A stretch of 64,000 bases of DNA, taken from contig NZ_CADO01000139.1 of NCBI RefSeq assembly GCF_000285275.1, positions 124,001 through 188,000 of the forward strand, in the 5' to 3' direction. Shown piece after piece: positions 8,328 through 40,566 of this stretch (positions are counted from its first letter, which is position 1; every line of letters begins with the position of its first letter). The notes under the pieces are model-generated. The model ran no database searches. It worked only from the letters and a program-made list of their open reading frames with translations, and was not told where the DNA came from. Made by a program: the position numbers and the translations under genes. Source of the DNA: Acetobacter pasteurianus subsp. pasteurianus LMG 1262 = NBRC 106471 (GTDB taxonomy: Bacteria > Pseudomonadota > Alphaproteobacteria > Acetobacterales > Acetobacteraceae).

Positions 8328-9089
8328 TTAGTTCTGGCTTAAAAGGGGCACGGCGCGGCCACCAGGGCCATTGGTGAATGCCTGAACCTGCACACCAATA
8401 ACATGCCATCCAACCTGATCATGAAACAGTAAAGGCGCGCCGCTGCTGCCATGTGTGCCAGCGCAATTATGCACGAGCATGGGGTTTCCGCCACCATCTT
8501 GGGTAATGCTTAAAAAATGGCAGTTCTGATCAGCCGTGATGATATCTGGCTGATTTTGCTCATACCCGCCCAATACAACAGGCATTCCGGGTGTAAGGGC
8601 CTGTTGGGGCGTATTAATATGAAAAACCTCATTCGGTTTGGCGATGGCATGGTCCAGAATAAGCGTGGCATGGTCTAACCCGCCGCTATTGCTTTCTTGA
8701 TCCGTTCTGTAACCGGGGGGAATAATAATTTGCACGGCACGGGCATGGGCCATGTAATGGTCCCCCGTATAGGCGCGTAAAAAATGCACGCTTTCAGGCT
8801 GCACAAACCCGCGCACATGGCTCAGCCACAGGCAGTGCCCGGCCGTTTCCACCACGTTGGGCGCAATCAGAAAACCGGTGCACCGGCTACCCAGTTCTGT
8901 TTGCACGCGCCCCACTGCAGACCAAGGTGGCTGCGTGGCATCCACTCTTTGGCGTGGGTCATGTAGCCCTACACCAGCCAGATGCGTGCGATAAGCTGGG
9001 CCTTCAGCCAAGGCTGCATGACCTGTAAAGGTGGCCTGCATGACAGAGGCAAATGCCACCATGCAGGAAAAAAGAAGGTTACGCGCCAT
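8328..9089 (-). CDS. Secreted trypsin-like serine protease
   Basis: This 253-residue protein has a signal peptide (cleavage near residues 24-29) and a chymotrypsin-fold domain. The catalytic triad appears as His85 in TAGHC, Asp139 in GLDHATL and Ser216 in GSSGAP. Cys70/Cys86 and Cys190/Cys209 could form disulfides. The active-site loop is GSSG rather than the usual GDSG, so the oxyanion region is slightly atypical. I chose the ATG at 9089; it starts the signal peptide and overlaps the galE stop by 11 bases. A longer frame to 9143 would lie inside galE. Export to the periplasm or outside is expected; the substrate is unknown. Confidence 0.85.
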   Translation of the reverse strand: MARNLLFSCMVAFASVMQATFTGHAALAEGPAYRTHLAGVGLHDPRQRVDATQPPWSAVGRVQTELGSRCTGFLIAPNVVETAGHCLWLSHVRGFVQPESVHFLRAYTGDHYMAHARAVQIIIPPGYRTDQESNSGGLDHATLILDHAIAKPNEVFHINTPQQALTPGMPVVLGGYEQNQPDIITADQNCHFLSITQDGGGNPMLVHNCAGTHGSSGAPLLFHDQVGWHVIGVQVQAFTNGPGGRAVPLLSQN

Positions 9090-10065
9090 AGCCCTGTGGG
9101 TGGTTTTTGCGCCAGTTGAAGGCTGTTTCCACAATCCGATCAATATCCGTAAACTCTGGTGCCCAACCGGTTGCTTCCATCAGGCGGGCAGGGCTGGCAA
9201 CCAGGCTGGCCGGATCACCCGCACGGCGTGGGCCTGCCTGCCAGGGCACTTCCAGATTGCTTACGCGGCCAACGGCATCAATAATTTCACGGTTAGAATT
9301 GCCGCGCCCTGTGCCAACGTTAAACACCACGCTTTTATCATTCAGCAAAGGCAATACGGCCAGATGGGCACGTGCCAGATCTGTAACATGCACATAATCA
9401 CGGATACAGGTGCCATCTGGCGTGGGGTAATCTTCACCAAACAGGGTAAGGGCAGGGCGGCGTTTCAGGGCGGCATCAATGACCAGCGGGATTAGATGCG
9501 TTTCGGGGCGGTGATCTTCCCCCGCACGGCCAGCAGGATCAGCCCCGGCAGCGTTGAAGTAGCGCAGGCACGCACTTTTCAGACCATGAATTTTGTCGGC
9601 CCAGTACAGGGCGCGTTCCACCATATATTTGCTCTCACCGTAAGGGGAGCCGGGGTTGATGGGGGCGTCCTCGTTAATCGGGCCTTCTCCGGCGGAACCA
9701 AACAGATTGGCGGTGGAGGAAAACACAAAGCGTTTTACACCGTGGCGCACACAGGCATCAATCAGGCCAAAACCGTAACCTGCATTGGCTGTCATGTACA
9801 TCATGGGGTTCTGCATGCTTTCTCCCACCAAGGAGAGCGCTGCAAAATGCAAAATGCCATCCCACGGGCCGGAGGAAAGAACTTTATCCAGACAGGCAAT
9901 GTCTGAAATATCACCTTGCATAAAAGTGGCCTGATCCGGCACGGCAGCGCGGTGGCCAGTGCGCAGGTTGTCCAGCACAACAACGTCGTGCCCATCATCT
10001 AGCAGGGCAAGAACAACGTGGCTGCCAACATACCCAGCGCCACCGGTTACCAAAAAACGTGCCAT
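9079..10065 (-). CDS. galE: UDP-glucose 4-epimerase
   Basis: GalE interconverts UDP-glucose and UDP-galactose using bound NAD, feeding polysaccharide synthesis. The 328-residue protein opens with the Rossmann motif VTGGAGYVGSH and has the catalytic Ser in FSSTANLFG, YGESK with Tyr and Lys, LRYFNAAGAD and RDYVHVTDLA. These are classic GalE features and the length is right. The downstream protease gene overlaps its 3' end. Other NDP-sugar epimerases share the fold, but the motif set favours GalE. Confidence 0.94.
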   Translation of the reverse strand: MARFLVTGGAGYVGSHVVLALLDDGHDVVVLDNLRTGHRAAVPDQATFMQGDISDIACLDKVLSSGPWDGILHFAALSLVGESMQNPMMYMTANAGYGFGLIDACVRHGVKRFVFSSTANLFGSAGEGPINEDAPINPGSPYGESKYMVERALYWADKIHGLKSACLRYFNAAGADPAGRAGEDHRPETHLIPLVIDAALKRRPALTLFGEDYPTPDGTCIRDYVHVTDLARAHLAVLPLLNDKSVVFNVGTGRGNSNREIIDAVGRVSNLEVPWQAGPRRAGDPASLVASPARLMEATGWAPEFTDIDRIVETAFNWRKNHPQGYGA

Positions 10066-10156: not shown

Positions 10157-12958
10157 TCAGAATGGTTTGAGCAAACGGTCAAGGTAATCCAGTTCCTGCT
10201 GCGGGCGGGTACGGTCTGAATCTCGCCGCCTCAGTTCCTGCTCAATTTCTCTGGCGCGCTGGCGGGCCACGTTATCTGGAATGTGGGTGGAATCATCTTC
10301 GGTCTGATCCTTGCCTTCACCCAGCTTGCGGCCCAGCGGATCGCGCTTGCCGCCCTGTTGGTCTTCTTCCTCCTGATTTTCTGAGGAATCAGACGGTGTG
10401 CCAGAACCATTCTGTCCATCGGATGCACTGCCAGAACCAGAAGATCCATCAGACGGGCTGCCAAGAGCAGGCAAAAAGCTGGGAATGCTGTTTTTGCCAT
10501 TGCCCTTAACCGCATCCTGCATTTGCTGGCGGGTTTTGCGCAGGGCTTCCAATGCTTTTTCTTCCGCATTGGCGGCAGCGGCATCATCCCCATCGGCCAG
10601 TGCCTTGCGGGCATCCTCCATGCTTTTGCGGGCTTCATCAAAAGCGCTGGGGATTTTGCCTGTAAGATCCTTGAATTCGTCTTTCAGCTCATCCAGCGCG
10701 TGTTCCAGTGCATGCTGCGTGGCACGTTCATTGCGGCGGGCCGCTGCCTGTGCCTCTGCTTGGGCAGGGTCGGGCATGGCTGGTGGTGTTTCGGGCTGCG
10801 CAGGCGGAGGGGGTGGCGCAGATGGTGCGTTTTCCGAACCCGGCGGCATGGGCAGGCCTAAACGGCGCAACAGTTCGGATGTTGGCATGTTGGCGTAATC
10901 GGCCTCATCATCACCATCGTCTGCCAGATCACTCTGCTTTTGGGCCTGCGCTTTCAGGTTTTCATCAAGGCGAGATTGCGCATGATCCAACAGGGCGGTT
11001 TGTTTGCTGGCCAGATCATGCAGGGCGGCTGCCTGTTCACGCATTTTCTGCTGCGCCATCATCTGCTGGGCAAGGTTTGCCATATCCTGCGGCGTTGCGT
11101 TGCGCATGCGCTCGGTAGCGTTTTCCATATCCTGCAAACGCTTGAGCGCTTCATCCGCATGGCCATTGGAGGCATCGGATTGCAACTGGCGCATCAGGCG
11201 GGAAAAAGCCTGATTACCCGCGCTGGTAAAGCCCGGAAGGTCAGGAATAACCGTATGATCTTTCATGGCCTGATTGGCTAACGCCTGCATTTTGCGGCTG
11301 ATGGCACTTTGCAGGGTTTTTAGCCTGTCTTCCAGTTCCTGCTGGGCCTGTTGCCCTTGCTGTCCATCCTGATGCATGTGCTGGAGCTGCTGTGCCACGG
11401 CGGCTTGGGCCGCACGCACATCGATAGATGCCTGAGCACTGGCATCATCTCCGTTGCGGCGGTCTTCTATATCCAGCGCCAGATCCCACAGCAGGTTTGT
11501 GGCGCCCGTGCGGGCCGTGGCGGTATCTGTCAGACTGTCATCCAGCATGGCCACCACGCTGCTGAGTGCGAGCAACATGCCGGTATGTTCACGCACAGGG
11601 CCGGGGGCATCGGCCAGTGCTTCCAGATCCGATGCCGCATCCTGCCGGCTTTCCTGCCCCAGAGCGAAGCGTTTGCGTACATCCAGCAAAGCACGGGCAA
11701 TAGGGGAATGAAAGGTGCGTGCGCCCATGCGGAATGTGGCAGAAGCGCTTTTGCCTTCATGCCCACTGACAGAGGTTGCGACCACGCGGCCGATTACGGT
11801 TTCACCCGCCCACGGATCTTCCGACAGATCCGGGCTGATAGCGCCTTTTACAGATTTGGGATGCCCAACAAGTGGCAGGGGAATGGTAAGCACACGTTCC
11901 GGCCCATGTTTGGCATGTGCCAGATGCAGTTCCACCTTAAGGGACGCCAAACCATAGGCATGGCTGGCCTCATACGGCAGAAGTGTGCGCCATTCTTCCT
12001 TGCGGGGAGAACCGGGGTTAGGCCCCCATTTCACGCTAGGGTCTGCATCCGGCAGAACGGTGACGGGCCATTGCGCCAATGTGCGGCCACGGCCTGTAAG
12101 ACGTACGGTGCCAGAATGCTCCAACACCACATCCAGCTTCCAACTATGGGCATCCAGCTTATGGCGTGTGGCATCATGCAGCACCATGTCACCCTGTTCC
12201 CGCAAGGTGGGGTGGGAGGCCATGCCTGTAACAATAGCGGTAAGGTGCGCCCCTTGCGGCGTTTGGGGCGGTGTTTTGAGATTACCCAGAAAAACCGGAG
12301 CATCCGGCGCATAAGCTGGTGGGGTTATCCATGCCTCTACGCGTGGGAAGGGCACATCAGGATCATCCCGCCCCGGAATAAATCCGGCAAGAATACGCCC
12401 CGGCGCGGAGGAACCCGCAAGCCCGGCTGTGCCAGCAAGGGCTGCAACCAATACCCAAGCGCTCATCTGCCGCACGCGGCCTTGGGGCCAAAGGCGTGGC
12501 CAACCTGCCCGCAACGCGCCGAGTGATGCCAGAATGCGCTGTTGATGCGCTTGCCATAAGGTGCTGGAACTTTGCGAGGCTGTGCCTGCAGGGTGGTCCG
12601 TGAGCGTAGCAAGGGGGCGATTGTGAAGGCCCGATGCCTGTTCAATCCGCCGGTCAACCTCGCTGGAGGTAGGGAGCGCAAGGTTTTCAATATCCTTGTG
12701 CAGCCGCCAGCCACATAAGCTCAGCCAACTTGCCACCAGCAGCAACCGTACACCATCTGGCAGGTGCTGAGGAATGCGCAGCAAAGATGCCGCGCAGTAA
12801 ATGCCCAGCAGGGCAAGAGCAGGCTGTAGCGCAGGCCACAGCCTTTCTATCCGCAAAACAATGGCGGCGTGGCGGCGTGCGGTGGCAAGGCGCTCCGCCA
12901 GCGCTCCATCCTCAGCGGTGGAGGCGGTCAGGGATTGGTGCAGACCGCCTTGGTTCAT
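10157..12958 (-). CDS. TIGR02302/DUF4175 family large membrane protein
   Basis: This 933-residue alphaproteobacterial protein has two N-terminal membrane helices (ALLGIYCAASLL and a second near residue 75), another hydrophobic segment near residue 170, and a large periplasmic or exposed region. From about residue 500 it becomes rich in Gln, Ala, Met, Asp and Glu with long predicted coiled coils, a Pro-rich linker (PSAPPPPPAQPETPPAMPDP) and a charged C-terminus. The molecular role of the family is unknown; envelope function is likely. The ATG overlaps the lysA stop by four bases, so it is cotranslated with lysA, a common arrangement in Rhodospirillales. Confidence 0.88.
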   Translation of the reverse strand: MNQGGLHQSLTASTAEDGALAERLATARRHAAIVLRIERLWPALQPALALLGIYCAASLLRIPQHLPDGVRLLLVASWLSLCGWRLHKDIENLALPTSSEVDRRIEQASGLHNRPLATLTDHPAGTASQSSSTLWQAHQQRILASLGALRAGWPRLWPQGRVRQMSAWVLVAALAGTAGLAGSSAPGRILAGFIPGRDDPDVPFPRVEAWITPPAYAPDAPVFLGNLKTPPQTPQGAHLTAIVTGMASHPTLREQGDMVLHDATRHKLDAHSWKLDVVLEHSGTVRLTGRGRTLAQWPVTVLPDADPSVKWGPNPGSPRKEEWRTLLPYEASHAYGLASLKVELHLAHAKHGPERVLTIPLPLVGHPKSVKGAISPDLSEDPWAGETVIGRVVATSVSGHEGKSASATFRMGARTFHSPIARALLDVRKRFALGQESRQDAASDLEALADAPGPVREHTGMLLALSSVVAMLDDSLTDTATARTGATNLLWDLALDIEDRRNGDDASAQASIDVRAAQAAVAQQLQHMHQDGQQGQQAQQELEDRLKTLQSAISRKMQALANQAMKDHTVIPDLPGFTSAGNQAFSRLMRQLQSDASNGHADEALKRLQDMENATERMRNATPQDMANLAQQMMAQQKMREQAAALHDLASKQTALLDHAQSRLDENLKAQAQKQSDLADDGDDEADYANMPTSELLRRLGLPMPPGSENAPSAPPPPPAQPETPPAMPDPAQAEAQAAARRNERATQHALEHALDELKDEFKDLTGKIPSAFDEARKSMEDARKALADGDDAAAANAEEKALEALRKTRQQMQDAVKGNGKNSIPSFLPALGSPSDGSSGSGSASDGQNGSGTPSDSSENQEEEDQQGGKRDPLGRKLGEGKDQTEDDSTHIPDNVARQRAREIEQELRRRDSDRTRPQQELDYLDRLLKPF

Positions 12959-32201: not shown

Positions 32202-34520
32202 GTGGCTTCTGAAGAGATCATAGATCCCACAGTCCAGCACGATGCTTCTGTCCGAAGGGTTCTGCTGCACCTTGTTCTGCCATTTGTTGTTACGGTTATG
32301 GCCGTGCTGGCCATTGCGCTGGTAGGTATCAATTCATACCGTACCACCAAGGAGGGTGTTTCTACCCTTACGCACCAGCTTATGGGTGCTGTGCAGCAAT
32401 ATATTGTGCAGCAGGTTACAGATTATATTCTACCGGCTGCTACGGGTAACCTGATTGCCTCTGGCATGATCGAACATGCCCCCGCGCAGGTGGAAGACAA
32501 GGTTTTCTATTCCTACGGCAGCACCATGCTGCGCAAGATCCCGCAGCTTCAGTCCTTTTATCTGGCGGATGATGAAGGGCATTTCATGCTCATCGCCCGT
32601 GCAGCACAAAAGGGCGTGCAGGAACATGTGCGTCTGATTGAAAAAGACGGCCACACCTATTTCCATCACGCGTTCTGGGATGATAACGGGCAGAAAATTT
32701 CCGAAACGGAAGAAGATGCCAAGGGGTATGACCCACGCACGCGTGATTGGTACAAGAATACGGCCGGAACAGATAAGGTAACCTGGACCAAGCCGCATCT
32801 GTTCCCCACCACCAGCCAGTTTGTCATGACCAGTTCTCTGCGGTTCAAGACAGATGCTGGCCATACAATGGTGTTTGCCACCAATATTTCGCTCAACGAA
32901 CTCAGTTCGTATCTGGATCAGATCAAGGTTGGTAAAACCGGCTCCGCCATGATTGTGGATAGCCGGGGCCTGTTTATTGCCGGTAAAAACCTTACGCAGC
33001 AGGCCAAGGCCGCTGGGTGGGACCCGGATAAAATGGTGCTGGACCGCAATGCCTATCCGGTTTTTGCATTGGGGTATGATCACTACCGTGTGCGTGGTGT
33101 TGGGCCACGGCATGTTACGTGGGATGGCACGGATTACATCACCATTGCTGCAGCTTTGCCGCACTATTCCGATAGCTGGATTTTGCTGATGGCTGCGCCC
33201 GAAAGTGATTTCGGGTCTTTCGCGCGCCAAAGCAGCCACCAGAGCTTGCAGTTTTTGGCCATTATCACGGTTTTCTCGCTTGTGCTTGCAGGTCTGCTTG
33301 TGCGGCAGGTGCGGCGCACAGAGTCCAGCACGCGCCTGTTGGTGAAGCAGAAAGAGCAGATTCAGCGTGAAAGTTCTGCGGTGCAGCAGGTGGCCGTTGC
33401 GCCGCGCCTGTTTGACCCCACGGTAGAACCCCTGAGTCTGACAGAGCAGCTAACGCTTGTAACGGGTGCCCGGCGCGCCACGCTTTGGCGCTTCCTGCAC
33501 GATGGCGCTGCCATGGTGTGTGAAGATGCGTATGATCAAACGCAAAACACACATTCCGGCGGGTTTGAAATGGCTCGTACAGAACTGGGGCCATTCTTTT
33601 CTGCCATTGAAGAAGGCAATGCGTTCTCGGTTGAAAATGCAGCGGTAGACCCACGCACCACGCGGTTTGAGCGTTTGACCATGCGTGAACTGGGCACAAA
33701 GGCATTGGCCATTTGCCCCGTGCATGGCCCGCATGGGGTGGAAGGTGCGATTATGCTGGAAGATCCGCATCTTCAGCCGCACCTGTTGTACTTCCTTGAT
33801 CTTATGGCCGGGGTGGTCGCCCTGCGCTTTGCCGCACAGGCGCAACTGCTGAATACGCAAACCGGCAAGATTGTAGATGCCGGGGAGCAGGTTGCCACGC
33901 TGGATGTGCCCGCGCCCAAATCTGATAATATGCTGATGAAGGCACCAGAAGCCTCTGCCGTTAATTCTGCCAGCATTTATCCGTCTGTTGCTGTGTTGGT
34001 TATCACGTTCTCTGACCCCGTGGTGGAAGGAGAAAAAGAAACTGAGGCCCTGATTGAACTCATCAATCAGCTGGCGGCAGACGTGCAGTCCGTCGCGCAG
34101 GAAGAAAAACTGTTTGCCGTGGAAGTGGCCGGTCACCGTATGATCTGCATGGCAGGTTGCCTGCCCACGCCAGATGTTACGGCCATTGTGCGCGTTGCAG
34201 ATGCAGCGCTTAAAATGCGTGAAATCTTTATGGCATCATTGGCTGCTGCAGATCTGGAACCGGTGTTTACCATGGGTATTGATTACGGCCCGGCATTTGG
34301 TGGCGCGGTAGGGAACGAACCCAAGGTGTTCAACCTGTGGGGGCAAACGGTCTCTCTGGCCGAGCTGATGGCACAGGGCGCGGCAGATCCCGGCACCATT
34401 CAGGTAACAGAGCGTGTTTATGGCGTGCTGCGTGACAGATATCTGTTCCGCAGCCGTGGGTCCTTCTTTGCGCCGCATCTGGGGCTGGGGCGTGCCTATA
34501 CATTGGCGGCAAGGCGATGA
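32202..34520 (+). CDS. Membrane receptor: dCache + GAF + degenerate class III cyclase domain
   Basis: This 772-residue protein has a membrane helix (21-43), a periplasmic dCache sensor (about 46-340, with the PDC motif GYDPRTRDWYKNT at 175-187), a second helix (349-367), a short coiled coil, a GAF-like domain (about 412-545) and a C-terminal class III nucleotide-cyclase fold (about 594-770). In the last, the first metal Asp is kept (D605 in FSD). The second is His645 (AGHRMICMAG), the base-selecting Asp is Gln715 (NLWGQTV), the Asn is Ser718 and the transition-state Arg is Leu722. It is therefore probably catalytically dead and acts as a sensor or scaffold. Start is GTG. The stop overlaps the MlaE-like gene by four bases, tying it to lipid transport. 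Confidence 0.85.
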   Translation: MASEEIIDPTVQHDASVRRVLLHLVLPFVVTVMAVLAIALVGINSYRTTKEGVSTLTHQLMGAVQQYIVQQVTDYILPAATGNLIASGMIEHAPAQVEDKVFYSYGSTMLRKIPQLQSFYLADDEGHFMLIARAAQKGVQEHVRLIEKDGHTYFHHAFWDDNGQKISETEEDAKGYDPRTRDWYKNTAGTDKVTWTKPHLFPTTSQFVMTSSLRFKTDAGHTMVFATNISLNELSSYLDQIKVGKTGSAMIVDSRGLFIAGKNLTQQAKAAGWDPDKMVLDRNAYPVFALGYDHYRVRGVGPRHVTWDGTDYITIAAALPHYSDSWILLMAAPESDFGSFARQSSHQSLQFLAIITVFSLVLAGLLVRQVRRTESSTRLLVKQKEQIQRESSAVQQVAVAPRLFDPTVEPLSLTEQLTLVTGARRATLWRFLHDGAAMVCEDAYDQTQNTHSGGFEMARTELGPFFSAIEEGNAFSVENAAVDPRTTRFERLTMRELGTKALAICPVHGPHGVEGAIMLEDPHLQPHLLYFLDLMAGVVALRFAAQAQLLNTQTGKIVDAGEQVATLDVPAPKSDNMLMKAPEASAVNSASIYPSVAVLVITFSDPVVEGEKETEALIELINQLAADVQSVAQEEKLFAVEVAGHRMICMAGCLPTPDVTAIVRVADAALKMREIFMASLAAADLEPVFTMGIDYGPAFGGAVGNEPKVFNLWGQTVSLAELMAQGAADPGTIQVTERVYGVLRDRYLFRSRGSFFAPHLGLGRAYTLAARR

Positions 34521-35416
34521 GTGTGAGCCAGCAGACAGGCGGCCCCAACACCACGCCGTCGGATGATGAACCAGATCTGATTCTGCAAACAGATGCGCAT
34601 AAGCCTGCCAAGCGTATTCCGGTGCATGAATGGATACGCAGGAAGCTGGCATGGATCGGCCGACTTGTGCGCAGGCAAGCCCGGTTTTTCCTGGTTGTTT
34701 TGGGGGCAGGCTGGGGCGTTATTTTTGAGAGCTTCCGCTCTCACGCATGGCGTCGCACCGTGCGGTACGAATTTGTAACCACCATGAACAACATTATCGG
34801 CGGTGGTGTCAGTGCCTCACTGTTTGCCGGTATGCTTACAGGTGTGGCGGCTGTTTCTCAGGTTATTTACTGGTTGGGTCTTACCGGCCTTGCCAAAATG
34901 ACAGGCTCCATTTTGGTGAATGTGGTTATCCGTGAAATTGCGCCCATTCTGGTTGGCATTCTGCTGCTGGGGCGTAATGGCATGCTGTCCGCCACAGAGC
35001 TGGGCTTGCTGACTATTGGCGGGCAGGTGCGCTCCATGCAGTCTGTGGGGATGGACCCATTTTTGATGCTGGTTCTGCCACGCACGCTGGCGTTTACCGT
35101 GGCCGGGTTTACGCTGGGTATTCTGTTCTCCATGTCATCGCTGATCACCGGGTATGTGATGAGCCGTATTTCCGGCGTGATTACCAACCCGATCTGGACA
35201 TTTCTGGATGATGTGGCTGCGGCCATGTCTGTCACGGATTATGCCGTTATTCCGCTTAAATTCATCATGGTTGGTTTTGTGGTGGGGCTTGGCGGCTGCC
35301 TGACGGGCCTGACTGCCACCAATGAAGATTCACTGCGCACCTTGCTGCCACGCGGCTTTTCCCGCGGAATGCTGATTGTGATGATGGTGAGCGTTCTGTT
35401 CAGTCTGGATCTGTAA
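34517..35416 (+). CDS. MlaE-type ABC transporter permease
   Basis: This 299-residue permease belongs to the MlaE/YrbE family, the membrane part of MCE lipid transporters between the inner and outer membrane. After a polar N-terminal 60 residues it has an interfacial helix and five or so membrane segments. The family core RNGMLSATELGLLTIGGQVR and SMQSVGMDPFLMLVLPR contains the cytoplasmic coupling loop with its conserved Glu. It overlaps the receptor gene by four bases and precedes the ATPase-like gene by one base. The coupling loop looks intact, so it should still bind an ATPase subunit. Confidence 0.92.
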   Translation: MSVSQQTGGPNTTPSDDEPDLILQTDAHKPAKRIPVHEWIRRKLAWIGRLVRRQARFFLVVLGAGWGVIFESFRSHAWRRTVRYEFVTTMNNIIGGGVSASLFAGMLTGVAAVSQVIYWLGLTGLAKMTGSILVNVVIREIAPILVGILLLGRNGMLSATELGLLTIGGQVRSMQSVGMDPFLMLVLPRTLAFTVAGFTLGILFSMSSLITGYVMSRISGVITNPIWTFLDDVAAAMSVTDYAVIPLKFIMVGFVVGLGGCLTGLTATNEDSLRTLLPRGFSRGMLIVMMVSVLFSLDL

Positions 35417-35417
35417 G

Positions 35418-36119
35418 ATGGAGACATATTCAGCCGGCCCACTTCTGGAACTGAACAAGGCAGTGCCCTCATTTGAGGATAGCGGCCTGCCGCCGGTACC
35501 CTTCAACATGAAGCTGATGCCCGGCGAATGTATGATTGTGGAAGCGCGAGACCCAAGCCGCGCCACCATGTTTGCAGATCTGTGCAGCGGTATGGTGGAG
35601 CTGGAAAGCGGGCAGGTCAGCTTTATGGGGCTGGATTGGGCAAACCTGCAGGATCGGGAACTCAACGCTTTGCGCGGGCGTATCGGGCGTATTACCCGTC
35701 GCGCCAGTTGGGCGGAGTTCATGCCCACGCATCTGGGTATTATTTTGCAGCAGTTGCACCACACCACCCGCACTTTGGATGATCTGGTGGCAGAGGCTGT
35801 AAGGCGTTCAGAAAGTTTTGGTCTGCCGGGTGTGCCTACAGTAAGCCCATCCCTGCTTTCAGATACGGATCTTACGCGCGTTTCATGCGTGCGGGCTTTT
35901 ATGGGGCAGCCGCATTTGCTGCTTTTGGAAGACCCGCTGGAGGGTGGCCCGCCCGAACTGTACACCTCTTTCCTGTCTTCAATTACAGAGGCGCGGGATA
36001 GAGGGGCAGGCGTAATCTGGCTGGTGCGCAGCAATGCCGTTTGGCAAAGTTACCGGCAGGGTATTACCTCCACATGGCGTCTTGCTGATGATGGCCTAGT
36101 AGCAGTACGGATGGCATAA
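35418..36119 (+). CDS. MlaF-like ABC ATPase fold that has lost its catalytic motifs
   Basis: By position and pattern this 233-residue protein is the MlaF subunit: MPGECMIVEARD, SGQVSFMGLDWANL, LNALRGRIGR, RAFMGQPHLLLLEDP. Yet nearly every catalytic feature is altered. Walker A is EARDPSRAT (42-50), with the Lys replaced by Arg48 and all three Gly gone. The Q-loop Gln is Arg94. The LSGG signature is LSDT (147-150). Walker B reads LLLLED (D and E swapped, 171-172). The switch His is absent (VRSN, 203-206). Reading frame and composition are normal, so it is a conserved-looking pseudo-ATPase, not a decayed gene. It probably cannot hydrolyse ATP; it may be structural or pair with an active ATPase coded elsewhere. 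Confidence 0.8.
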   Translation: METYSAGPLLELNKAVPSFEDSGLPPVPFNMKLMPGECMIVEARDPSRATMFADLCSGMVELESGQVSFMGLDWANLQDRELNALRGRIGRITRRASWAEFMPTHLGIILQQLHHTTRTLDDLVAEAVRRSESFGLPGVPTVSPSLLSDTDLTRVSCVRAFMGQPHLLLLEDPLEGGPPELYTSFLSSITEARDRGAGVIWLVRSNAVWQSYRQGITSTWRLADDGLVAVRMA

Positions 36120-37069
36120 TGTTCCAGCTCCGCTTAAGACAGAAAGTGAAACCTCTTATTTCTCTGCGTTACGCAGATGAATGGGTTGGATTTCTTGTTC
36201 TTCTCAGCCTTGTTATTTTTGCAGGCGCGGTGATTGAAGCCGGTGTGCTGCGAGACTGGCTTACCCCGCCTGCGCGCTTGCGCGTGGTGCTGCCAGCTTC
36301 TGGCGTGGGTGGCCTTACGGTTGGGGGGGATGTGCAGCTTATGGGGGCGCATGCTGGTACCATCCGTTCCATCAAGCTCAATCCGTCAGGCAGTATGTAT
36401 GCGCTGGTGGATCTGGACCCGCAGGCCAAACCGTTCATCCGGCGCGATAGTTCAGCCATTATCCGCAAACAGCTTATTGTAACCGGTGCTGCTTATCTGG
36501 ACCTCAGCCGTGGGCATGGGGAACCTATGGATTGGAGCTACGCTGTTGTAAGTGCAACGCCTGCTCCCAACCCGGCAGACCAGATTACCGCCACACTTAA
36601 CAGTATTCAGGCGGAAATCATGCCCGCACTGGCAAGTGCCCGGCACATGATGGCGCAGCTTGATGGCACCATTAGCGATATGCACGCAGGCAAAGGCACC
36701 GTTGGGCAGTTGATGACGAATGATCAGCTGATCAAGCAGGCCGAAGCCACCATTGTTTCGCTTAATGGAGTGATTGACCGCCTGAAACCGATTGAAAACC
36801 AGATTTCCGGCATTATGAACAAAACCGATGCCACGGTGGCAAACCTGAAAGGGGCCTCGCGCGATCTGAAGGGCGCCACACCGCATCTGCCGGGAATTGC
36901 GGCTAATCTGGATGCCAGCACCGCAGATCTGCCAGCATTGCTGGCGCAGGCGCAAACCACGCTTTACGGGCTGGAAAAACTAACAGACCAACTGCGCGGC
37001 ATGTGGCTGCTGGGGGGACAAAAAGTGGTACGGCATAACCGTCTGTCACCAAAGCAGGTGCGGCCATGA
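36119..37069 (+). CDS. MCE domain protein (MlaD-like)
   Basis: This 316-residue protein has one N-terminal membrane helix (about 22-42) and an MCE domain (about 55-135: LRVVLPASGVGGLTVGGDVQ, then AGTIRSIKLNP and SSAIIRKQLIVTGAAYLDLS). A long helical C-terminal region (about 160-300) follows, likely forming the periplasmic tube or needle of such proteins. MCE rings carry phospholipids across the periplasm. Its ATG overlaps the ATPase-like stop by one base (TAATG), and its own stop overlaps the lipoprotein gene. Confidence 0.92.
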   Translation: MFQLRLRQKVKPLISLRYADEWVGFLVLLSLVIFAGAVIEAGVLRDWLTPPARLRVVLPASGVGGLTVGGDVQLMGAHAGTIRSIKLNPSGSMYALVDLDPQAKPFIRRDSSAIIRKQLIVTGAAYLDLSRGHGEPMDWSYAVVSATPAPNPADQITATLNSIQAEIMPALASARHMMAQLDGTISDMHAGKGTVGQLMTNDQLIKQAEATIVSLNGVIDRLKPIENQISGIMNKTDATVANLKGASRDLKGATPHLPGIAANLDASTADLPALLAQAQTTLYGLEKLTDQLRGMWLLGGQKVVRHNRLSPKQVRP

Positions 37070-38004
37070 GGTATTTTTCTCCCGCTGCGGCTGTTTTGTG
37101 CCTGCCTTTGCTGCTGGCTGGGTGCGGTGGTGCTGCACAGGATAAACCCACCGCGCAGGATGATGCCGCGTGGGATCAGGCCATGACAGCCGGGCGAGAT
37201 TCCTTTGAGCTCGGGCGTTATACCGTAGCCGTTACGCAGTATCGCAAAGCAGCAGATCTGGCTTTGCTGCGAGATGATGCAAGCGCGATAACCGAGGCCG
37301 GGTATGATCTGGCAGTTGCCCAATTAGCCGCAAATACGCCGGATAAAGCGTTGCAAACAGCGCAAGCTACACGGCAGGCCGCTGGTGTGCGTGGGCAAAC
37401 GCAGCTTTATTCGCTTGATCTGGTAGAGGCCGCTGCACATTACAGGCTGGGCCATTACAGTTCGGCCATATCATCTGCCACGCAGGCCATGCAGTCATCC
37501 GATAGTGCATTGGCAGGCAGGGCGGCTTTGGTGCTGGGGCTTGCGGCCGATGCGCAATCCGATAGCGCAAATCAGCAAAAAGCTGCGGCTTATCTTGGCA
37601 GCCTTAAAAAGCCGCTTTCGACCACGCAGCAGGCAGATCAGGCAGAAATTCAGGCCCGTGTGCTGCGCCAATCCGCACCACAGCAGGCGGAAGCTTTGGC
37701 CGTGCAGGCAGCAGATCTACGGCGTAACGATGGCTCCTACCGTGATATGGCGCGCGCACTGGCACTTGCTGCGCGCATTGCTTCTGCTCAGGGTGACCAG
37801 CAAAAGGCCCGTGCGCTGTGGGAGCGTGCAGCACAAAGTGCAGCGGCGCAGTCTAGCGGCTTGAACCGGATGGATGCGCAAACTCTGGCGCATGGTTCCA
37901 TCAACAAAGGCAACTACGTACCGCCCGAAGATGATGCTGCAGCATGGGCGCGGGATGCCGGGGGTGTTTCCCTCCGTCCGTTTGAAGATAAAGACGCACA
38001 GTAA
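37066..38004 (+). CDS. Lipoprotein with TPR-like repeats
   Basis: This 312-residue protein has a signal peptide with lipobox LLAGC (Cys at 20), so it is lipid-anchored in the envelope. The mature part is Ala/Gln-rich and helical. TPR-like units include AGRDSFELGRYTVAVTQYRKA and AHYRLGHYSSAISSATQAM. It starts inside the MCE gene stop (ATGA) and ends the operon. In related systems an outer-membrane lipoprotein (MlaA or ABC-type auxiliary lipoprotein) completes the lipid path; this one is different and may be a scaffold at the far end. No name is assigned. Confidence 0.82.
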   Translation: MRYFSPAAAVLCLPLLLAGCGGAAQDKPTAQDDAAWDQAMTAGRDSFELGRYTVAVTQYRKAADLALLRDDASAITEAGYDLAVAQLAANTPDKALQTAQATRQAAGVRGQTQLYSLDLVEAAAHYRLGHYSSAISSATQAMQSSDSALAGRAALVLGLAADAQSDSANQQKAAAYLGSLKKPLSTTQQADQAEIQARVLRQSAPQQAEALAVQAADLRRNDGSYRDMARALALAARIASAQGDQQKARALWERAAQSAAAQSSGLNRMDAQTLAHGSINKGNYVPPEDDAAAWARDAGGVSLRPFEDKDAQ

Positions 38005-38020: not shown

Positions 38021-39409
38021 GTGGCTGGGGCAATGCAGCGGAACCTGATTATTGCGCGCTGTGGTGCCCACTCCCTGCACCCGGAATGGCTGAAAGGGAG
38101 CGTGCCAGAATGGGATCTGGTTTTATGTCCATTTCAACCTGTAGATATGCAGGGCCTACCCGGCCAGATGGTGCCGGGCCATAAATGGGATGGCCTGTAT
38201 CGTTTTCTAACAGAATGGGATGGCTGGAAGCAGTACGACTATATCTGCTTTCCGGATGATGATTTGCGCGCCACGGCAGAAACGTGGAACCACTTTTTTG
38301 CAGCGTGCAGGCAGTATAACGCCAAACTGGCAGCGCCGGCTCTTACGCCGGGTTCTTTCTGTAGTCATCTTTCCACATTGCAGAATAAAAACTTTGTGGC
38401 GCGTGCCTCTACATTTGCAGAAATCATGGCCCCCTGCATGCAGCGGGTTTTTTTGCATCAGGCACTGCCAACCTTCCGCTTTTCACGCGCAGGCACAGGG
38501 TTTGGGCTGGATCTGCTGTGGCCCATGATGCTTGGTTGGCGCGATATATGGATAATGGATGCCACCCCGGTAGAACATACACGCCCGGTAGGGCAGCAGC
38601 GCTCTTCCGCATTGGGGGAAATCAGTCAGTATGATTTTCGTTTCATTGCGGGTTTGGGCGTGGTTGGGGCTACGTGGTCTTACGGTGGATATACCCAGCA
38701 AGGCACGTATCTGGATTATCATGATAGTCGTTTTGCTGAACTTTATCGGCAAGGCTATGCCTATGTACAGCAGCACTATCCGCAATATTGGGCGGAGGTT
38801 TGTGCGTTTCAGCCAAGTGCACCTCCGCAACTGAGTACGCAGGCGCTTGATAAGCTGGAACAGGCCTTGTTTCATTTAAACAAGGATGCCGGGAATATTC
38901 TTTCTCGCCACCGGCCCGCCATGTTGTCCACCGTATCTCAATGGTCATGGTCTCATGATGCCGCGCGTGAAGCCTCTGGTGGCAACGATGGGCTGATAAA
39001 CGGCGGCTACGGTTTTCATACAGATTTTGAAGATGATCCGTGGTGGCAGGTTGATCTGGAGCAGATGTGCAAGGTGCAAGAAGTTGTGCTGTACAATCGG
39101 CTGGATCAAAAAGAATGCTGTGTGCAGCTTGATATTCTTGTTTCGCATAACGGCACGGATTGGCACACGGTTTTTACCAAACGGGATGATACGCATTTTG
39201 GCGGAGCGGATTCCCAGCCTTTGCATGTGGTTTTGTCCAAACCTGTTATGGCGCGTTTTGTGCGTGTGCAGGCGCTTGGGCACACGGTGCTGCATCTGGA
39301 TCAGGTAGAAGTGATAGGCACGCCCGGCAGCATGAGGGCGCAAAATGGCTTTTTTGAAAAACTTATCTACAAAACCGCACGTTTTCTAAAAGCAGGGCGT
39401 TCTGAATAA
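38021..39409 (+). CDS. DUF707 glycosyltransferase-like protein fused to an F5/8C (discoidin) domain
   Basis: This 462-residue protein has two parts. Residues 1-260 match DUF707, including RNLIIARCGAHSLHPEWL at the N-terminus, a DxD-like CFPDDDLRAT and GTGFGLDLLWPMML; the family looks like a nucleotide-sugar transferase fold. Residues about 300-440 form an F5/8 type C (discoidin) carbohydrate-binding domain: NDGLINGGYGFHTDFEDDPWWQV is its typical start, then VVLYNRLDQ and RFVRVQALG. I chose the GTG at 38021 with AAGG five bases before it; ATG 38033 is an alternative. A role in surface glycan assembly is plausible but unproven. Confidence 0.82.
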   Translation: MAGAMQRNLIIARCGAHSLHPEWLKGSVPEWDLVLCPFQPVDMQGLPGQMVPGHKWDGLYRFLTEWDGWKQYDYICFPDDDLRATAETWNHFFAACRQYNAKLAAPALTPGSFCSHLSTLQNKNFVARASTFAEIMAPCMQRVFLHQALPTFRFSRAGTGFGLDLLWPMMLGWRDIWIMDATPVEHTRPVGQQRSSALGEISQYDFRFIAGLGVVGATWSYGGYTQQGTYLDYHDSRFAELYRQGYAYVQQHYPQYWAEVCAFQPSAPPQLSTQALDKLEQALFHLNKDAGNILSRHRPAMLSTVSQWSWSHDAAREASGGNDGLINGGYGFHTDFEDDPWWQVDLEQMCKVQEVVLYNRLDQKECCVQLDILVSHNGTDWHTVFTKRDDTHFGGADSQPLHVVLSKPVMARFVRVQALGHTVLHLDQVEVIGTPGSMRAQNGFFEKLIYKTARFLKAGRSE

Positions 39410-39549
39410 AAACTAAGCGTTTTATTATGTTTTTTATGGGAACTTGCAGGGGTTCCATGCAGAAATGTTGAGGCACACGCACGCTGTGCCGTGTATCACC
39501 GCACTATAGGGCGCATCCCCATACCGGGCCGGTGCGTGGAGCGGTGATT

Positions 39550-40566
39550 ATGAAAAGACTATTGCGAAGGTACAGAAAGAAAAGCCAGCTAGATAAGGAA
39601 ATTCGTCACACGCCGCTGGAGGATGTGGGCGGATCTTCCACGGCGCAGAAGAAGAAGGAAGGCGGACGTTTTTCTTTAAGCACGCGTGAAGCCGCCAAGC
39701 GTTTTAGAGCCCACGCGCTGGTGGAAGAAAAAGGCCACCACGATGTTGTGCGTGTGGGGCTGAAGGACAGCGTATGGACAGATCTGTACCATCACGCCCT
39801 TACAGCAAGCTGGCCCGCATTTACGGCTGTGGCTGTGTTTTCTTACCTGCTTATCAATTTTATATTTGCGCTGCTGTATATGGTGGCACCTGACCAGATT
39901 ACGAGTGATGGTCAGCATACTCTGCTTTCACTGTTCTTTTTTAGTGTGCAAACGCTTTCCACCGTGGGTTACGGGGGCATGACACCCGTTGGCATTTATG
40001 CCAATGCCATTGTCTCGTTGGAAGTGTTTATCGGCATGATGCTGACAGCCGTGGCAACGGGTTTGCTTTTTGCCCGTTTTGCACGCCCACGTGCGCGTAT
40101 CATGTTCAGTAATACCGCTGTTGTCAGCAGTGAAAGTGGTATTCCCGCACTGTGTATTCGCATTGCCAACTTGCGTGTTAGCGTCATTCTTTCAGTGGAT
40201 GTAGAAGTAGCGCTTTCCCGCTTGGTTATGGGGGAAAATGGGCATCTGGTGCGCAAGTTTGACCAGCTCCTGCTTGTGCAGTCTCATGTGCCAGTGCTGC
40301 GGTTTGCTTTTGTTATGGCGCATGTAATCGGCCCAGATAGCCCCTTACACGGCAAGACAATGGCGGAACTGGAAGCCGAAGAAGCCGAAATTATTGTAAC
40401 AGTTACCGGCACGGATGAAGCCTTGGGCCAAACCGTATTTGCCAGAACGGCGTACAGGTTTGACCGCGTGCGCAATAACCATCGGTTTGTAGATATTGTG
40501 GTTTCCCGCCCAGATGGCCGTATTGCAGTGGATTATACGCGCTTCCATGATGTGGAGCAGCACTAG
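39550..40566 (+). CDS. Kir-type (KirBac) potassium channel
   Basis: This 338-residue protein has a basic cytoplasmic N-terminus, an outer helix (about 88-112), a pore helix, the selectivity filter TVGYG (138-142) and an inner helix (about 152-176). A C-terminal immunoglobulin-like cytoplasmic domain follows, with RIMFSNTAVVSSESGIPALC and VTVTGTDEALGQTV typical of inward rectifiers. Two membrane helices and the filter place it in the KirBac family. The ATG at 39550 has GTGGAG upstream; an upstream GTG is less likely. It converges on the FUSC gene with a gap of only three bases. Confidence 0.92.
   Translation: MKRLLRRYRKKSQLDKEIRHTPLEDVGGSSTAQKKKEGGRFSLSTREAAKRFRAHALVEEKGHHDVVRVGLKDSVWTDLYHHALTASWPAFTAVAVFSYLLINFIFALLYMVAPDQITSDGQHTLLSLFFFSVQTLSTVGYGGMTPVGIYANAIVSLEVFIGMMLTAVATGLLFARFARPRARIMFSNTAVVSSESGIPALCIRIANLRVSVILSVDVEVALSRLVMGENGHLVRKFDQLLLVQSHVPVLRFAFVMAHVIGPDSPLHGKTMAELEAEEAEIIVTVTGTDEALGQTVFARTAYRFDRVRNNHRFVDIVVSRPDGRIAVDYTRFHDVEQH

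Follow-up and report, generated by a model that had tools for sequence, protein, structure and literature searches.

A conserved five-gene block of Acetobacter joins a Cache-GAF receptor with a degenerate cyclase domain to an MlaE-MCE transporter whose MlaF-like protein lacks the ATPase motifs

A block of five genes from Acetobacter pasteurianus subsp. pasteurianus LMG 1262 = NBRC 106471 encodes a Cache-GAF receptor together with parts of an Mla-type lipid transporter. It contains two enzyme-like folds, a class III cyclase domain and an MlaF-like ATP-binding cassette (ABC) protein, and both have lost their active sites. The block lies in a stretch of 64,000 nucleotides of contig NZ_CADO01000139.1 (assembly GCF_000285275.1), which is referred to here as the window. 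All five open reading frames (ORFs) were found on the + strand. The receptor and MlaE genes share a four-base ATGA overlap, one base separates MlaE from the gene of the MlaF-like protein (pseudo-MlaF), the latter overlaps the MCE gene by one base, and the MCE and lipoprotein genes overlap by four bases. The initial annotation, made from the sequence alone, described five genes that overlap or nearly touch, and the overlaps of 1–4 bases and the single one-base gap agree with this. It had also named the products as a Cache-GAF receptor, an MlaE permease, a pseudo-MlaF, an MCE protein and a TPR-like lipoprotein (Table 1), and these domain calls were supported by Pfam, weakly in the case of ABC_tran and TPR. 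The receptor matches dCache_1 (7e-13), GAF (1e-6) and Guanylate_cyc (PF00211), and the MCE protein matches MlaD (PF02470) at 7.3e-11 over residues 55–132 and is 99% identical to the MCE protein of A. pomorum, a comparison from which records of its own or very near genomes may be left out. The TPR_2 match of the lipoprotein scores 25.8 bits, slightly under the cut-off of 27, and apart from TPR models Pfam gives only a weak match to an ARM repeat, with DUF330 (ABC-auxiliary) not among the matches. The permease matches MlaE only in Pfam and not the PqiA/LetA membrane proteins. None of the five proteins is MlaA, MlaB or MlaC by Pfam, and no STAS match was found at E-values up to 10 in a search for MlaB that covered these five proteins and not the rest of the genome.

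Table 1. Genes and domains of the block at 32202–38004; coordinates are positions in the 64,000-nucleotide window (TM, transmembrane segment).
Feature	Coordinates	Strand	Description
Receptor	32202..34520	+	N-terminal TM, periplasmic dCache (residues ~45–343), second TM, linker, GAF (414–541), dead class III cyclase domain (612–755)
dCache periplasmic sensor domain	32334..33230	+	Amino-acid motif changed: PctA Y144 position is H, D173 position is N
GAF domain	33441..33824	+	Pfam GAF, residues 414–541
Pseudo-cyclase domain	34035..34466	+	Guanylate_cyc 1.4e-16, residues 612–755; catalytic residues lost
Divergent MlaE permease	34517..35416	+	Pfam MlaE (PF02405) 3.7e-32
Pseudo-MlaF	35418..36119	+	ABC nucleotide-binding-domain fold without Walker A, Walker B, signature and H-switch residues
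Former Walker A (ARDPSRATM, residues 43–51)	35544..35570	+	Alignment
Former ABC signature (LLSDTDLTR, residues 146–154)	35853..35879	+	Alignment
Former Walker B and D-loop start (LLLLEDPLEG, residues 167–176)	35916..35945	+	Alignment; Asp to Glu in 69/73
MCE protein	36119..37069	+	TM at the N-terminus (by eye), a single MCE domain, helical-looking C-terminal part (by eye)
TPR-like lipoprotein	37066..38004	+	TPR_2 9.7e-6; lipobox LLAGC

The block is inherited as a unit. Among 200 genomes of the order, the MCE profile matched in 121, pseudo-MlaF in the same 121 and the receptor in 119, while no genome carried the receptor alone and 79 had none of the three. The receptor shares contig and strand with the MCE gene in 119 of 119 cases and lies 1025–1813 bp ahead of it, and in 121 of 121 genomes the pseudo-MlaF match stands directly before the MCE match, with ends −9 to 84 bp apart. 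Conservation of gene order had been set beforehand as a test, and every receptor was found beside the transporter. The co-inheritance also upholds the claim that receptor and transporter form a single unit, and the recurrence of the block in 119 of the 121 MCE-bearing genomes is more than chance would give. The MlaEFD-type transporter of the block is present in 29 of 51 sampled genera of the order. A set of 120 genomes of the family gave 38 receptor and 36 MCE matches; the two receptor-only matches (G091 and G108) stop at contig edges. The order receptor-MlaE-pseudo-MlaF-MCE on one strand was seen in 35 of 37 fetched loci, and the other two break at contig edges. A receptor is present in 25 of 28 named loci, nearly all from Acetobacter with one Gluconobacter metagenome-assembled genome (MAG) and one record titled Limnobacter, and the remaining three loci are cut by contig ends. 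An MlaE start codon that overlaps the receptor stop codon is possible in 30 of 35 loci, as is expected under translational coupling, and an automatic search found a lipobox ORF of at least 150 amino acids directly behind MCE in 29 of 34 relatives. The flanking genes vary while the block stays, and chance adjacency or a shared neighbourhood was rejected on this ground: ppk/ppx lie upstream in many Acetobacter loci, not so in L065 of the same genus, and in 13–15 of loci L067–L100 the upstream side has HisI-like and YgfZ-like genes on the opposite strand, and the downstream side has a BioB-like gene (named by eye). Beyond the order the unit is rare. Five of 289 genomes of the class matched, and the only one outside the family of the window (G298, from another family) has all five genes; in this search ABC-rich genomes were scored on the best 9 and then the best 7 first-look candidates, which gave the same five genomes both times. 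Taken together, the five proteins almost certainly serve one function.

The MlaF-like protein has lost every motif used for ATP hydrolysis. In the window protein, Walker A reads ARDPSRATM, Walker B LLLLEDP, the signature LLSDTDL, and the H-switch position is R, so that none of the features of an ATP-hydrolysing MlaF is present. The comparison included 73 MlaF-like sequences with that of the window, from which duplicates and proteins shorter than 200 amino acids were dropped, and the two intact MlaF proteins of the same genome served as the reference. The Walker A lysine is present in 0 of 73, with no lysine within two columns either, the Walker B Asp-Glu pair is intact in 0 of 73, and the H-switch histidine is found in two. 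Five of the six catalytic positions of the cyclase domain are also changed in the window receptor (K to E, D to H, D to Q, N to S and R to L), and the description of both enzymes as having replaced active sites was thus correct. The fold of pseudo-MlaF is kept. The Pfam ABC_tran match (0.0084) is under its cut-off, and NCBIfam ABC ATP-binding families match at up to 7e-10, those listed being under their cut-offs as well. An AlphaFold model built from 27 sequences has a mean predicted local distance difference test score (pLDDT) of 86.4 (five models: 86.4, 80.2, 79.6, 41.3 and 39.8), and Foldseek matched it to ABC nucleotide-binding domains, with E. coli MlaF (6xbd_I) at rank 11. The P-loop is the best-kept part of a working ATPase. 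In pseudo-MlaF, residues 41–50 have no position at 90% conservation, while 20 such positions fall in residues 79–145, the region of the Q-loop and helical subdomain; the counts are unweighted over 73 sequences, of which 31 are from Acetobacter. In known structures MlaF meets MlaE at the Q-loop and helical subdomain. Conservation away from the nucleotide side and at the MlaE-facing region argues for a scaffold role, and from its sequence pseudo-MlaF would, with very little doubt, not hydrolyse ATP.

The permease is divergent as well. The genome has two other MlaEF sets with intact Walker motifs (L101 7254–8824 and L102 7982–11473); one has a longer MlaE of 385 amino acids, and behind it lie genes that by eye encode an MCE-like protein and a lipoprotein. 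The N-terminus of the block MlaE is ~35 residues longer than that of the intact MlaE on contig C116 of the same genome. An alignment of the three MlaE proteins reveals that the block MlaE lacks a QIDAL-type sequence common to the other two, which we take to be the MlaE coupling helix. A permease that keeps the family fold and has lost this sequence would fit a transporter base uncoupled from ATP. The two other MlaEF sets might be a source of energy, in that an intact MlaF from one of them could power the block MlaE, with or without pseudo-MlaF as its partner. In mycobacteria a single Mkl/MceG ATPase serves several mce operons, and for a heterodimer with one degenerate site the block itself offers no partner ATPase while two intact MlaF proteins are encoded elsewhere. 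The missing QIDAL-type sequence and the place of pseudo-MlaF directly before MCE in every block-bearing genome make a borrowed ATPase quite unlikely; additionally, both sites of a mixed dimer would be defective because pseudo-MlaF has neither Walker A nor the signature.

The cyclase domain of the receptor is degenerate across the family. A set of 42 receptors (36 and 6 further sequences) was aligned with an active cyclase. The six catalytic residues of this class are the two metal Asp, a substrate-specifying pair, and the transition-state Asn and Arg. None of the 42 has all six catalytic residues, and the best keep three (by eye). The second metal Asp is found in one, the transition-state Asn in one and the Arg in three. 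The first metal Asp of the window receptor is ambiguous, as MAFFT aligns D and phmmer aligns T at this position. The cyclase fold is still recognised, with PF00211 matching 36 of 36 members of set A2. Pairing of the pseudo-cyclase with an active class III cyclase was rejected for this genome; the block receptor is its only PF00211 match, so there is no active partner of that class. The tree lengths for 22 sequences are 2.29 for the cyclase domain, 2.75 for Cache and 5.85 for GAF, with 2.50 for ppx, and the mean information over 42 sequences is 2.40 bits for the cyclase domain versus 2.20 and 2.11 for the other two receptor domains. On balance, conservation of the dead cyclase domain is similar to that of the other receptor domains, if not stronger, and this suggests that it serves in binding.

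The periplasmic domain has a largely conserved pocket. The dCache_1AA motif consists of Y121, R126, W128, Y129, Y144 and D173 in PctA numbering, as given in the matching passages of PMC10104139. The window domain has Y, R, W, Y, H and N at these six positions and so does not carry the motif, which sets it apart from the dCache_1AA and dCache_1AM sensor domains of chemoreceptors such as PctA and PctD. W128 is found in 40 of 42 receptors and Y144 in 38, and the D173 position is Asp in 14, Asn in 25 and Ser in three. The receptors of L064–L138 with Asp (14) and with Asn or Ser (28) fall into two well-supported clades, a split that looks like one change of sensor specificity.

The five genes are under constraint. 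The ratios of nonsynonymous to synonymous substitution rates (dN/dS) relative to A. pomorum are 0.040 for the receptor, 0.051 for MlaE, 0.038 for pseudo-MlaF, 0.016 for MCE, the lowest of the five, and 0.040 for the TPR protein. The neighbouring ppk and ppx have ratios of 0.018 and 0.024. Three more distant pairs, which complete the four pairs for which ratios were computed, gave values of 0.07–0.28 over all genes. Both dead folds are under strong purifying selection. A decaying operon was rejected because the ratios of the five genes (0.016–0.051) are near those of ppk and ppx.

Transport by this block probably proceeds, and is regulated, without an ATP engine of the usual kind. The best explanation, a tentative one, is a lipid conduit of MlaE and MCE that does not depend on ATP and comes with a sensor of its own. 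An MCE system that works free of ATP is known in PqiA, for which the relevant passages of PMC10897342 discuss passive, proton-motive-force or unknown-ATPase drive, and this argues for such a conduit. An MlaE dimer and an MCE hexamer would form the lipid path through the inner membrane and periplasm, and the long MCE tail and the TPR lipoprotein may extend it toward the outer membrane. Pseudo-MlaF would be kept, without use of ATP, as a folded clamp or docking scaffold on the cytoplasmic face of MlaE. The dCache domain may sense a small periplasmic molecule, and the change would be relayed through GAF to the pseudo-cyclase, which would bind, without catalysis, to the MlaE/pseudo-MlaF base as a protein-interaction module and switch the conduit between open and closed. 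Formation of this complex, its stoichiometry, the docking, the gating, the lipid cargo and the direction of flow are what we infer from the gene set. It is rather likely that the receptor regulates the transporter, and regulation through direct pseudo-cyclase contact is a more tentative proposal. The strictest form of the model, a ligand-gated lipid conduit of wholly non-catalytic parts in which a dead cyclase docks on a dead ABC domain without any nucleotide chemistry, is rather doubtful; in it lipids would move down a gradient or by proton-motive force.

Several observations weigh against the gated conduit. A possible metal-binding Asp remains in the cyclase domain, since 24 of 42 receptors have a D aligned at the first metal position, although phmmer places the site differently, and one receptor (L078, from G045) is the sole one of the 42 aligned with both metal Asp residues and is a candidate intermediate toward the dead state. 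In the one close pair, dN/dS is higher for the cyclase domain (0.044) than for Cache (0.027) or GAF (0.020), which speaks against it as the best-kept domain, even if the three values are all low. In the single-chain model of the receptor, the pseudo-cyclase part is poor, with pLDDT mostly below 65, and the VIA-align comparison of this model speaks for residues 45–343 only. Rate covariation between receptor domains and the transporter is weak; the best of 21 pairs, cyclase-MlaE, has r = 0.43 over 41 branches, which fails correction for 21 pairs. The loss of known motifs does not prove a lack of nucleotide binding. Finally, two genomes of one genus (G218 and G251; loci L132 and L137) carry MlaE, dead MlaF, MCE and TPR genes but no receptor match, either next to these genes or in the rest of the genome.

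The remaining metal Asp, together with the low dN/dS of GAF in the close pair, would suit a model in which a nucleotide (ATP, cAMP or another) is bound but not hydrolysed by pseudo-MlaF, the pseudo-cyclase or both. The GAF family binds small ligands, and such a sensor might read cell energy or a second messenger, to which the receptor would add. This model is very unlikely: Walker A is lost with no family-wide conserved substitute in its place, and over 22 sequences the GAF tree is longer than those of the other two receptor domains.

The receptor-less genomes show that the receptor is not strictly required and that gating by it is not always needed. Their MlaF proteins have also lost the Walker motifs, so the ATPase loss is independent of the receptor. 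Two other genomes of this genus have neither MCE nor receptor. The absence of the receptor, the loss of both enzyme folds and the changed amino-acid motif of the window dCache would all suit an alternative in which the transporter is ATP-free and constitutive, the receptor is a factor for its assembly or positioning, and the dCache signal does not control lipid flow. This alternative is unlikely, however, as dCache evolves about as slowly as the cyclase part and its pocket is mostly kept, which suggests that a ligand still matters. A built-in receptor could also be the output of the system, with the MlaE-MCE complex sensing the lipid state of the envelope. ABC-type sensors of the BceAB type are known elsewhere, and the co-inheritance of receptor and transporter would be the same. 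The only cytoplasmic Pfam domains of the receptor are GAF and the dead cyclase, however, and in none of the five proteins did Pfam find a kinase, GGDEF, EAL or DNA-binding domain as an output, so that signalling in this direction is most improbable. The initial annotation had proposed a non-catalytic gate for phospholipid traffic. Its single unit and its two dead folds stand, and the gate itself is plausible and the best single reading, but it is not an obligate one, given the two genomes that lack the receptor.

Broken copies were also seen. The receptor and MCE matches of G124 (L139) are split and those of MlaE and pseudo-MlaF are short, which indicates decay there, and at G158:C5:25695-28030 the receptor match falls into two parts near residue 385, with a stop codon. 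Whole receptor matches are present in further genomes of these genera, for example G046 and G032.

The block is real, conserved and unusual, and is a variant of the MCE/MlaEFD systems rather than a wholly separate system. It resembles MlaFEDB of E. coli and the minimal MlaEFD phospholipid transporter of Veillonella parvula (described in the matching passages of PMC10665443) in having an MlaE permease, an MCE protein and an ABC-fold MlaF-like partner in one operon, and it resembles the minimal core in that Pfam shows no MlaA, MlaB or MlaC among its five genes. It differs from both in the loss of the ATPase motifs in 73 of 73 proteins, in the changed QIDAL-type sequence of MlaE and in the extra receptor and TPR lipoprotein genes. 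The PqiABC and LetAB systems are MCE systems without an ATPase gene, which is comparable to the lost ATPase motifs here, and PqiABC also has an outer-membrane lipoprotein according to the passages of PMC10897342. The block, however, has MlaE as the membrane partner instead of PqiA/LetA, a single MCE domain, and a lipoprotein that is TPR-like and not of the ABC-auxiliary (DUF330) fold. The receptor shares the Cache-TM-GAF-cyclase layout and a recognisable cyclase fold with class III adenylate/guanylate cyclase receptors, but this family lacks the catalytic set in all 42 members and is genetically tied to a transporter. Among the titles and opening lines of abstracts listed from the open-licence PMC literature, none describes the block, which is not proof of absence. 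A term search in the main texts of PMC8602642 and PMC12041372, both on knockouts in Gluconobacter oxydans, gave no match for an mla, cyclase or MCE gene.

Some features were seen next to the block or in single loci. A gene at 38021–39409 of the window encodes a protein with a C-terminal F5/8 type C domain and no Pfam match in its N-terminal 300 residues; in the window, as in A. pomorum (L145), it separates the block from a channel gene, and it is unmatched in the other loci compared. The channel gene (39532–40566), downstream of the block, encodes an inward-rectifier (Kir-type) potassium channel and is also found in many Acetobacter loci. One locus (L069, from G013) has inserts of ~0.9–1 kb between receptor and MlaE and between the MCE and TPR matches (8404–9393 and 11958–12853), some translated stretches of which are alike by eye, as if from one repeat. 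A record of 4176 bp titled as a Limnobacter MAG (L171) carries a TPR match behind an MCE gene that shares 42% identity with the one in L095, and its betaproteobacterial name may reflect a binning error or a transfer.

To our knowledge, the drive of ATPase-less MCE systems and the regulation of any Mla-type transporter are open questions. The block is an MlaEFD-type machine that has been stripped of its ATPase motifs, with the protein itself kept under selection and a sensor tied on. It lets two questions be asked, namely what job the MlaF fold has without ATP use and whether contact alone is enough for a cyclase fold to signal, and it does so in organisms that are tractable, harmless and industrially used. 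The receptor is also a candidate for outer-membrane regulation in bacteria whose surroundings contain acetic acid and ethanol.

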